NCBI RefSeq assembly: GCF_012935715.1
Contig: NZ_CP052860.1
Span: 1,550,001-1,614,000 of the forward strand
Source: Pseudomonas sp. ADAK13
GTDB lineage: Bacteria; Pseudomonadota; Gammaproteobacteria; Pseudomonadales; Pseudomonadaceae
Direction of reading: 5' to 3'
DNA length: 64,000 nt
The position numbers were made by a program, and so were the translations under genes. This document shows, piece after piece, positions 1 to 17,176 of the stretch. The notes beneath the pieces are model-generated. The model was not told the origin of the DNA. It searched no databases and was given only the letters and a program-made list of their open reading frames with translations. How positions within the stretch are numbered: position 1 is the stretch's first letter; every line of letters begins with the position of its first letter.

Positions 1-73
1 CATTGCCCTGGACATCCTCGACCCGGGCAACAAAGCGGTGAATTACAGCCTGAGCTTCCACTCTCCCGAGTGA
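1..73 (+). CDS. C-terminal end of a protein cut by the window edge (DUF3426-type by position)
   Basis: An open frame enters from the left edge and ends at a TGA at 71-73; the last residues read DPGNKAVNYSLSFHSPE. Only 23 residues are visible. In Pseudomonas the gene before dusB-fis is usually a zinc-ribbon DUF3426 membrane protein after prmA, and this tail is compatible with that, but the identity rests on position and not on a motif. Confidence 0.5.
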   Translation, partial: IALDILDPGNKAVNYSLSFHSPE

Positions 74-15585: not shown

Positions 15586-15670
15586 GTGGGAGCTGGCTTG
15601 CCTGCGATACAGACGACGCGGTCGTTCAGATACACCGCGGCGATGCCATCGCAGGCAAGCCAGCTCCCAC
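15586..15670. repeat. Paired REP palindrome
   Basis: GTGGGAGCTGGCTTGCCTGC and its reverse complement face each other about 45 bases apart, the divergent REP doublet arrangement common in P. fluorescens. It lies between the convergent ends of cobK and the DUF3077-like gene. Confidence 0.9.
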
Positions 15671-15689
15671 ACTGATCTGCGTCGGTCAG

Positions 15690-15941: not shown

Positions 15942-16181
15942 TGTGAAGCTCCTAAGGGAAGTGGAGCTGCCACTGATCGCCGCGACGCGATGGAGGGTGG
16001 CAGCTGTGCGCAGGTTCGCGGACCGGTCCCTAGGCAACCCGGCATACCCGAAGGTATCCCGCGCACAGCCGCCATAGCGCCGCACAGTAGACGATAAAAA
16101 AGCGCCAACTGAAAGCAGACGATGGCGCTTAGCGCCTATAGGGATCCGGGCCGCGACGCCCGCCCGCTGAGTTTGCAGCGG
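15942..16181 (-). promoter_or_regulatory. Highly structured 5' leader of the DUF3077-like gene, candidate riboswitch-like RNA
   Basis: Read leftward, the leader shows a hairpin (16164-16181), a palindrome GGCGC-TAA-GCGCC (16124-16136), a terminator hairpin sharing one arm with it (16096-16130), then a 13-bp helix joining 16061-16073 to 15999-16011 that encloses an ATACC-TTCG-GGTAT tetraloop hairpin (16044-16057). A competing 9-bp helix (15997-16005 with 15965-15973) uses the same strand. The segment GGAGC at 15963-15967 can also pair with the ribosome-binding site. The pairings are seen directly; the regulatory role is inferred. No known riboswitch class is recognised. Confidence 0.6.
16096..16130 (-). 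terminator. Intrinsic terminator inside the leader (attenuator candidate)
   Basis: On the minus strand AAGCGCCA pairs with TGGCGCTT across a 15-base loop and runs into a stretch of T (16096-16101). The 5' arm is also the 3' arm of the palindrome at 16124-16136, so terminator and palindrome cannot form together. Confidence 0.7.
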
Positions 16182-16582
16182 TGTACGGAGACTAGAGATT
16201 GAGTTTCCCAAGGACAACCGCCAATCGCTGTCGGAAATTTCTGTGGAAGGCCGCCACATTCGAATCGGGCACAATCCAAACTGTGGGAGCTGGCTTGCCT
16301 GCGATAGCATCACCTCAAACCAGCAGGAAGACCGAGTCGCCGGTATCGCAAGGTGCAATGACCTCGTAGGAAAACGCCTCAATCATCGACGTCCTTTTGA
16401 CAACCCCGCTTTAAAAACCGATTCGCCTTACAACCCCCTCCGAACCAGCCGGCTGGTTCAGCCAAAAGCCCTCGCCCTAAGCTCCCCTCTCGCAGTTTTG
16501 CACCAGAGTCTGCGATGGGGATGCACTGCTTTTGCGGCGCATCGTGACTTGTCATTCTGTATCCCAAGGAATACGATCAAAG
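16182..16582. other. Intergenic region upstream of the toxin gene
   Basis: Holds the presumed start region of the leftward leader RNA near 16190-16260 and the promoter of the toxin-antitoxin pair. A single half REP (16281-16309, CTGTGGGAGCTGGCTTGCCT) occurs without its partner. Short open frames exist here, but none has a ribosome-binding site or a recognisable protein. Confidence 0.5.
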
Positions 16583-16885
16583 ATGATTCACTTCAAGAAA
16601 TCCGAGCATTTCCTGGAGTGGCTTGATTCGTTAAACAATAAACCGGCCCGTGCACGCGTACTGGCAAGGTTGGATAACGCACAATCAGGTAACTTCGGAG
16701 ACTGTGAAACAGTAGGAAATGGCGTTTCGGAAATGCGCATCCACTACGGCCCTGGATACCGGGTTTATTTCACTCGTAGAGAGGAGGTGGTTTACCTGTT
16801 GTTGATAGGCGGCGATAAATCAACGCAGAAACGCGATATCCAGCGCGCTAAGCAAATTGCAGCAGACTTTGAAAAAAAGGAGTAA
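16583..16885 (+). CDS. RelE/HigB-type toxin, addiction module killer protein
   Basis: 100-residue RelE/ParE-fold protein of the 'addiction module killer' (Gp49/HigB-like) group, expected to be a ribosome-dependent mRNase. Visible family features are FLEWLDSLNNKPARARVLARL, the central GVSEMRIHYGPGYRVYFTRR and VYLLLIGGDKSTQKRDIQRA. The frame is open back to 16532, but the family N terminus begins at ATG 16583. The antitoxin starts three bases after its stop. GC content is lower than in neighbouring genes, which fits a horizontally mobile module. Confidence 0.9.
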   Translation: MIHFKKSEHFLEWLDSLNNKPARARVLARLDNAQSGNFGDCETVGNGVSEMRIHYGPGYRVYFTRREEVVYLLLIGGDKSTQKRDIQRAKQIAADFEKKE

Positions 16886-16888
16886 GCC

Positions 16889-17176
16889 ATGACTGAATTT
16901 ACAGACTTCGACATAGCGGAGCACCTCAAGACTCCTGAAGATATGGCCGAGTATCTTGAAGCGTGCTTCGAGGAGGATACCGGTGACGGACTGCTTATTC
17001 GTTCAGCCCTCAACAACATCGCTCGCGCCCAAGGAATGACTCAAGTAGCCCGCGACGCCGGCCTCGGACGCGAAAGTTTATATAAAGCCCTCTCCAGCAC
17101 TGGCAATCCCGAGTTCGCAACTATCATGAAGGTTATGAAAGCGCTCGGCCTGAAGCTGCACGCCACGGCTGATTGA
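16889..17176 (+). CDS. Addiction module antidote protein (HTH antitoxin)
   Basis: 95-residue partner of the preceding toxin. The N-terminal part DIAEHLKTPEDMAEYLEACFEE is the family signature of HigA-like 'putative addiction module antidote' proteins, followed by an Xre-type helix-turn-helix (ARAQGMTQVARDAGLGRESL, about 48-67). It is expected to neutralise the toxin and repress the operon through DNA binding. An AAAGGAG site lies just before ATG 16889. Confidence 0.9.
   Translation: MTEFTDFDIAEHLKTPEDMAEYLEACFEEDTGDGLLIRSALNNIARAQGMTQVARDAGLGRESLYKALSSTGNPEFATIMKVMKALGLKLHATAD

Follow-up and report, generated by a model that had tools for sequence, protein, structure and literature searches.

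What kind of RNA would carry a series of mutually exclusive helices in front of a single small gene, and what might it control? The question was raised by the minus-strand leader of a DUF6124 gene in the window, by which we mean the whole 64,000-nucleotide stretch of Pseudomonas sp. ADAK13 that was analysed (NZ_CP052860.1, positions 1,550,001 to 1,614,000). The first-pass annotation, made from the letters alone, had described a palindrome sharing an arm with a terminator, a 13-bp helix enclosing a TTCG hairpin, a 9-bp competing helix and a GGAGC complement able to mask the ribosome-binding site, and had read them as a regulatory RNA of no established class, possibly responding to a ligand, that could act on both transcription and translation. 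All of these helices were found on the minus strand at the coordinates given for them (Table 1). The palindrome GGCGC-TAA-GCGCC is the antiterminator, formed by arms 1 and 2 of a three-arm attenuator that it builds together with the terminator hairpin and T run; the 13-bp helix is a portion of the 17-pair P1 stem of a C4 antisense RNA, of which the TTCG hairpin is also a part; the 9-bp helix pairs a segment lying downstream of the C4 with the C4 3' arm; and the AGCTCC/GGAGCT pair that would mask the ribosome-binding site is present. The 261-nt leader had a folding energy of -118.7 kcal/mol (z -3.72), which none of 200 shuffles equalled. The reading as a structured regulatory leader with mutually exclusive helices was supported, and an action on both transcription and translation is plausible.

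The absence of an established class proved to be wrong, because RF01695 (C4 antisense RNA) and RF03163 (c4-a1b1) both scored over their curated cut-offs, the latter barely, and the isrK family (RF01394) scored below its own (Table 1). C4 RNAs are processed by RNase P to an RNA of about 77 nt and repress the translation of their target. As in the rest of the class, the a' and b' segments of the window copy are complementary to sites around the downstream ribosome-binding site, with a perfect 6 bp between a' and a2 and a bulge between b' and b2, and in the C4 stem pairing was kept despite change on both sides in 10 of 27 pairs. The Rfam families over cut-off in the window were 5_ureB_sRNA, C4 and c4-a1b1, with no known riboswitch aptamer family among them; the 5' ureB sRNA match lies elsewhere (RF02514, 40835-41118 on the minus strand, 139.4 bits). 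A metabolite riboswitch, to which a structured leader with exclusive helices could point, was rejected because the element is a C4, and we regard it as hardly credible: the match is to an antisense family, and the variable parts co-vary with target sites. We conclude that the leader is a C4 antisense RNA of the phage type, which probably switches off the small gene behind it. It is a genuine member of an established RNA class, met where it would not be expected, namely in what would be a multi-copy, mostly private antisense control of small genes that is widespread in Pseudomonas.

Table 1 Features of the C4-DUF6124 unit in window coordinates; scores are given where a family match was obtained.
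Feature	Position	Strand	Basis
Promoter -35-like hexamer TTGTCC	16212-16217	-	position
Promoter -10-like hexamer TAGTCT, 17 nt from -35	16189-16194	-	
c4-a1b1 element, upstream C4 target	16143-16195	-	RF03163, 46.8 bits (cut-off 46.7)
isrK-like match, below family cut-off	16095-16182	-	RF01394, 42.8 bits (cut-off 50)
a1 core UCGCGG, complement of C4 a' (CCGCGA)	16151-16156	-	
b1, complement of C4 b' loop, imperfect in window copy	16135-16144	-	
Antiterminator hairpin GGCGC-TAA-GCGCC, arms 1 and 2	16124-16136	-	
Intrinsic-terminator hairpin, arm 2 with arm 3 (GGCGC, 16102-16106); T6 run 16096-16101	16096-16129	-	
C4 antisense RNA	15993-16079	-	RF01695, 81.7 bits (cut-off 45), E 1.8e-14
C4 UUCG hairpin (TTCG in DNA)	16044-16057	-	
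C4 b' loop (GUUGCCUAGGG), pairing b1 and SD region b2	16028-16038	-	
C4 a' junction (UCCGCGAA), pairing a1 and a2	16015-16022	-	
a2 hairpin, core UCGCGG at 15980-15985	15975-15992	-	
Segment s (GUGGCAGCU), alternative partner (versus C4 5' arm) of C4 3' arm 15997-16005	15965-15973	-	
SD-sequestering hairpin AGCUCC...GGAGCU; b2 (CCCUUAGG, 15951-15958) in and beside the loop	15947-15968	-	
DUF6124 gene, 83 aa	15690-15941	-	PF19619, 82.6 bits

The unit is very probably a domesticated, chromosomal form of the phage P1 C4 switch in which, judging from the sequence, translation of DUF6124 would be repressed and, in part of the units, the unit's own transcript would be attenuated. From this layout we infer a single transcript that would start just upstream of the a1/b1 hairpins and run through a1/b1, the attenuator, the C4, a2/b2 and the DUF6124 gene. 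The C4 would fold, be excised and act back on like transcripts, its a' junction anchoring on a2 and its b' loop pairing with b2, which would block DUF6124 translation because b2 overlaps the ribosome-binding site. Pairing of the C4 with a1/b1 would in addition free arm 2 for arm 3, since b1 runs into antiterminator arm 1, and the terminator so formed would leave less C4 and less mRNA. The outcome would be autogenous negative control with a built-in delay, that is, a burst of DUF6124 at promoter firing followed by shut-off. Since the leader that a C4 matches best is mostly its own, this control would for the most part stay within the unit. A promoter pattern drawn up after the first loci had been read (TTG[TA]NC-16..18-TANNNT, start about 90-140 nt 5' of the C4) occurred in 63/154 leaders, compared to a mean of 1.85 and a maximum of 5 after shuffling; the leader set was thinned by a k-mer filter rather than by phylogenetic correction, and L082 represents the window in it. 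A conserved block, CAGAATCCGCCGGCTTGTGC, extends into the -35 box of many units (L009, L013, L014) and may be a shared operator; tried as an operator common to the units, it was rejected, with six places in the window's genome at three mismatches or fewer, four of them at C4 or DUF6124 loci.

The antisense reading was supported by the match between each C4 and its own leader, which we compared with re-paired units in the window's genome (G000; 21 units) and in the C4-richest genome (G049; 52 of 55 C4s, three without a start in range being left out), using 10,000 permutations that treat units as independent. Own-unit pairing was never reached by any permutation, with z values in G049 of 20.2 for b' with the SD region, 17.6 for a' with a2, 12.5 for b' with the upstream target and 14.5 for a' with the upstream target, and of 11.2, 9.9, 8.5 and 9.2, respectively, in G000. 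Swapped-site controls were flat in both genomes (b' with a2, z -0.6 in G049 and -0.1 in G000; a' with the SD region, z -0.4 and -1.2). When only Watson-Crick pairs were counted, at least 6 bp between a' and a2 were found in 51/52 cognate pairs of G049 compared to 9.9% of non-cognate pairs and in 21/21 compared to 10.7% in G000; for b' with the SD region the corresponding figures were 41/52 versus 5.4% and 17/21 versus 6.7%. The two segments together identified their unit best: the own target was ranked first by b' alone in 27/52 (G049) and 16/21 (G000) cases, by a' alone in 28/52 and 17/21, and by the sum of a' and b' in 43/52 and 18/21; ranking by b' duplex energy placed it first in 9/21 of the G000 units. 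The privacy of the units is, by these scores, incomplete. All loops were distinct (52/52 and 21/21), and there were 33 and 14 different junction cores. The window's own b'-b2 pairing was among the weakest (CCUAGGG to CCCUUAGG with a bulge; CCTAGGG with CCCTTAGG), and its unit took combined rank 2 of 21. Selection against cross-talk was not seen, the mean non-cognate b'-SD score being 12.16 and 11.43 within the two genomes versus 11.79 between them.

Co-variation of this kind is unable to separate pairing in trans from pairing in cis, because antisense and target share one transcript. An alternative explanation is therefore a leader switch acting in cis only, in which the C4 fold is not excised and alternative folds of one mRNA set translation, the 5' arm and segment s competing for the C4 3' arm and the b' loop pairing with the SD. 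Such cis pairing is compatible with the co-variation, the helix between the 3' arm and s is frequent and cognate (a run of at least 7 bp in 94/154 leaders; cognate versus swapped z 3.2 and 4.7, with 11 and 0 of 10,000 permutations as high), and the window leader is predicted to use this helix when the C4 5' arm is removed, the full leader retaining P1 and the SD hairpin. The target, however, occurs twice, upstream and downstream of the C4, and processing is known for the C4 of P1/P7 and for C4-like RNAs of Acinetobacter, according to the available text of PMC5320573. We therefore consider a switch confined to cis improbable. Pairing of the anti-SD with the SD over at least 5 bp was found in 121/154 leaders (cognate versus swapped z 2.5 and 3.1; 87 and 11 of 10,000); like the competitor helix, it was assessed by cognate permutations, and both pairings have the weaker support.

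A further point against cis-only action came from L226, a DUF6124 locus of G000 that has no C4 and retains a1/b1; its a1 (TGTGCAAG) is complementary to the a' junction of the C4 at L021. L223, likewise a C4-less DUF6124 locus of G000, also retains a1/b1, and its a1 matches the a' of L001, L009, L013 and L014. Both loci may be trans targets, and control between units is possible given the complementarity of the L226 a1 to the L021 junction. As near-identical repeats flank the C4, recombination between a1 and a2 could delete it, which would fit C4-less units such as L226, though we offer this only as a suggestion.

The antisense reading was also borne out by close relatives of the window unit, of which we found 28 with a protein identity of 81-98%. 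Six neighbour genes were tested, and 21 of the relatives have one or more of them in common with the window (cobK in 20 cases); the other seven have none, two of the seven sitting on short pieces, so that claims about one chromosomal place rest on 22 units, the window's and 21 others. At this place the a' core CCGCGA was unchanged, and its complement UCGCGG was kept by a2 in 22/22 units and by a1 in 21/22. The b' loop, on the other hand, occurred in 16 forms, which both b2 (z 7.9) and b1 (z 5.6) followed, with 0 of 10,000 permutations as high; pooling all 29 units gave 19 b' forms and z values of 10.1 for b2 and 7.0 for b1. Examples of matched loops are CCTTAATCT with AGATTAAGG (L084) and CCTTAGGA with TCCTAAGG (L094). 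Concerted change of this sort at three sites is expected of an antisense RNA but not of an aptamer. The first-pass annotation had held that its switch would fall if homologous leaders had no compensatory changes, and such changes were found; its suggestion of a ligand gained no support, variation being highest where the RNA pairs with the leader of its own unit, as in an antisense RNA. L081 has flanking proteins with about 95-99% identity to the window's, but a b', b1 and b2 unlike those of the window and L082, as if the code had been exchanged in one step.

The attenuator arms were present in a minority of units, the window's included. A strict search recovered the three-arm form in 37/154 leaders, compared to a shuffled mean of 2.55 (maximum 6) and to 2/154 in a control stretch further upstream; by the definition used, it is absent from the other 117/154. 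In 27 of the 37 leaders b1 overlaps arm 1, and in the window it overlaps the first two bases of that arm. The window arms (GGCGC, GCGCC, and GGCGC followed by T6) have variants that preserve pairing, namely GACGC/GCGTC/GACGC in L094 and, with one G-U pair, GGCAC/GTGCC/GGCGC in L034. The free window stretch was predicted to pair arm 1 with arm 2 as antiterminator (-13.1 kcal/mol), and blocking CCCTATAGG (b1 and the first two bases of arm 1), which is what a bound C4 would do, shifted the prediction to the arm 2:arm 3 terminator (-12.5 kcal/mol), the gap between the two being only 0.6 kcal/mol. Five close relatives (L084, L087, L096, L098, L102) lack arms 1 and 2 and have kept the T run.

The same region admits a second reading, in which the short terminated RNA, consisting of a1/b1 and the terminator, acts like IsrK as a decoy that soaks up C4 and turns the gene on. 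The isrK-like match over this region and the presence of the same C4 sites in a1/b1 as in a2/b2 agree with it, as does the activation of anrP translation by short IsrK in Salmonella (available text of PMC4825925). Considering that the score is below the isrK cut-off and that such a terminator occurs only in a minority of leaders, we hold this activation to be unlikely as the main mode of control; a decoy could be an extra step of the C4 switch preferred here.

The proposal that similar leaders precede DUF3077/DUF6124 genes in other pseudomonads was confirmed in many of them. The window's genome has 21 C4s, 21 DUF6124 matches and five DUF3077 matches (four inside DUF6124 genes); by position, 17/21 C4s lie directly before a DUF6124/DUF3077 gene and 16/21 DUF6124 genes come with a C4. 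At the five others, nothing credible as a C4 emerged when the search filters were turned off, so that such a gene can live without one. As for the remaining four C4s, the gene behind L010 is Bro-N anti-repressor-like, that behind L005 has a QslA domain, and L012 and L016 precede small unassigned proteins. Between the L005 C4 and the gene for its 178-aa QslA-domain protein (LasR antiactivator; PF18226, 40.4 bits) there is a 28-codon ORF, which overlaps the beginning of that gene. A c4-a1b1 match at E <= 0.001 accompanied 20/21 C4 loci of this genome, nine of these over the cut-off.

Across the genus, C4 was present in 54 of 59 sampled genomes, the window's included (53 over the cut-off), with a maximum of 54 copies; a finer search of the richest genome, G049, gave 55, of which 52 were over the cut-off. 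The copy numbers of C4 and DUF6124 correlated in these 59 genomes (Spearman 0.88, uncorrected for kinship). In a sample of 274 genomes of the class, for which 15 candidates were scored per genome (15 of the 21 C4s of G000 thus show up), C4 occurred in 18, the window's own and 17 others with 1-6 copies each, none of the 17 belonging to the window's genus; none was found in 14 control genomes. Starting from the protein instead, a DUF6124 search of named Pseudomonas genomes had a C4 upstream in 79 of the best 80 of 295 confirmed loci, the sole exception (L106) having lost it. An iterated profile identified a DUF6124/3077-type ORF 3' of the C4 in 41/55 units of G049 and 32/43 units of other genus genomes, where the first profile pass had given 35 and 16.

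The spacing between C4 and gene was constant. For the 59 loci in which the protein was matched from residue 1 onwards, it was always 47-55 nt, and in 194/197 units the start codon lay 45-57 nt after the C4, a figure partly given by construction because starts were sought only 36-69 nt after the C4, favouring 49; this unit set was built from 98/101 and 81/82 matches of two match lists, truncated or repeated rows being dropped. Otherwise unlike proteins (DUF6124, or the Bro-N anti-repressor-like protein of L010) often begin with M-x-K-x-x-P-[ND]-P-P directly behind the leader, and 149/197 units have P[ND]P[PASL] close to the N-terminus, as if leader and first codons travelled together. Downstream of some C4s (L023, L048, L197, L218) we observed 'NPSA', a small protein (about 53 aa) that recurs in the C4 operon of the Pseudomonas phage phiAH14b and has relatives in viral contigs; the 'NPSA' units are probably the phage form of the unit.

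Cognate matching was likewise found in 34 distinct viral C4s (z 16.0), and the code therefore came with the phage form. Another reading makes the chromosomal C4s an immunity library that mainly silences incoming phage or satellite mRNAs in trans, with DUF6124 being secondary, an idea already raised for Acinetobacter (available text of PMC5320573). Pseudomonas phages and satellites do have C4s in a like layout, and vB_Pae_U10 and the chromosomal L010 share the loop core CCTAACGT and the junction CTTCCAC. Against the 34 viral targets, however, the best chromosomal C4 of G000 or G049 did not stand out from a re-paired null, which reached its score in 581 and 733 of 1000 cases, and 4 and 7 targets, respectively, were matched at at least 90% of the cognate score (three C4s of the viral set were flagged for doubtful ends), which makes a library of this kind very unlikely as the main role. 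A DUF6124/3077-type ORF lies downstream of 40 of the 77 C4s that were taken from three phages and from IMG/VR contigs, although these stretches may include host flank. Among 50,697 phage records the DUF6124 protein itself turned up once, in a prophage record and at its edge; 72,556 plasmid records had none.

The model of the DUF6124 protein is a helical hairpin (helices 21-45 and 48-81; AlphaFold2 mean pLDDT 88.8, confident), a predicted two-helix fold that is too plain to interpret. No NCBIfam, PHROG or PADLOC family was found for the window protein (Csf1 was weakly matched by 3/50 relatives, best E 0.0061), no sequence relative in the PDB (best E 0.12), and nothing at E <= 0.001 by Foldseek against PDB and BFVD. 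In P. fluorescens SBW25 the gene has a relative, PFLU_0601, with 86% identity. On the basis of the Bro-N and QslA-type genes behind sister C4s, it is a weak guess that DUF6124 binds and antagonises another protein. The unit is adjoined by a Gp49/HI1420-type toxin-antitoxin-like gene pair (16532-17176, plus strand; PF05973 and PF21716) and flanked on both sides (15586-15671 and 16281-16310) by GTGGGAGCTGGCTTGCCTGCGAT and its inverse, which we take to be REP-like.

It is an even call whether the following broader statement holds: Pseudomonas chromosomes carry paralogous C4-target units in large number, as many as about 50 in a genome, mostly privately coded and in part with a decoy-attenuator, a phage immunity circuit turned into a general controller of small-protein genes, and at one place the code has been rewritten fast (16 loop forms in 22 genomes, with b1 and b2 following and the a' core unchanged) in front of a protein about 80-98% identical. 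If true, this would be an unusually large set of paralogous antisense-RNA switches within single bacterial genomes and a natural data set on how RNA-RNA specificity is rewritten without loss of function, and it would give a handle on the regulation of DUF6124/DUF3077 genes and make phage immunity regions their likely source. Rfam lets annotators flag C4-DUF6124 units directly.

Both the C4 of phage P1 and the multicopy C4-like sRNAs of Acinetobacter have been described before, and Weinberg et al. 2010 gave the range of C4 as 'Proteobacteria, phages' (available text of PMC2864571). Judged by titles and the starts of abstracts, no paper on Pseudomonas C4-DUF6124 units was found in a search that covered few subscription papers. 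According to the available portions of PMC5320573, PMC12197685 and PMC8201110, RNase P cuts the C4 of P1/P7 from a longer transcript, the b' loop lies partly over the ribosome-binding site and the a' loop binds upstream. The window unit is similar to these in its fold, its a' and b' sites, its targets on both sides and the way in which b' covers the downstream gene's ribosome-binding site (PMC5320573 and PMC12197685, as available). In contrast to P1, the units described here are solitary and chromosomal, precede one small gene and occur in tens per genome in many species. P1 C4 governs Ant and Icd (available text of PMC8201110), whereas the gene downstream in the window is DUF6124 and the icd/ant genes expected downstream in P1 immI were not found there; L010 of the same genome still precedes a Bro-N anti-repressor-like gene.

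The units also resemble the Group 1 C4-like sRNAs of Acinetobacter baumannii, which the available text of PMC5320573 describes as numbering 21 in one genome, apparently processed, and variable in the a' loop; the Pseudomonas units vary in both a' and b'. That text names no cognate downstream gene for the Acinetobacter RNAs, whereas Pseudomonas C4s are mostly tied to their own gene. The window P1 stem begins with GGC, as in two of the Acinetobacter RNAs, most of which have GGW (same text). Similar to CI of P4 with seqA and seqC, the window leader has an antisense RNA that would pair with sites before and after itself; CI pairing leads to premature transcription termination (available text of PMC4825925), and the window has the terminator and competing arms that termination of this kind would need. 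It differs from P4 CI, compared here by description rather than by sequence, in its downstream gene and in that an SD-overlapping target is also clear. Gifsy-1 IsrK, finally, is likewise a terminated leader RNA resembling a1/b1 with the terminator, in which alternative structures control translation and the short form activates its operon (available text of PMC4825925); the window differs from it in scoring below the Rfam isrK cut-off and in its downstream gene.
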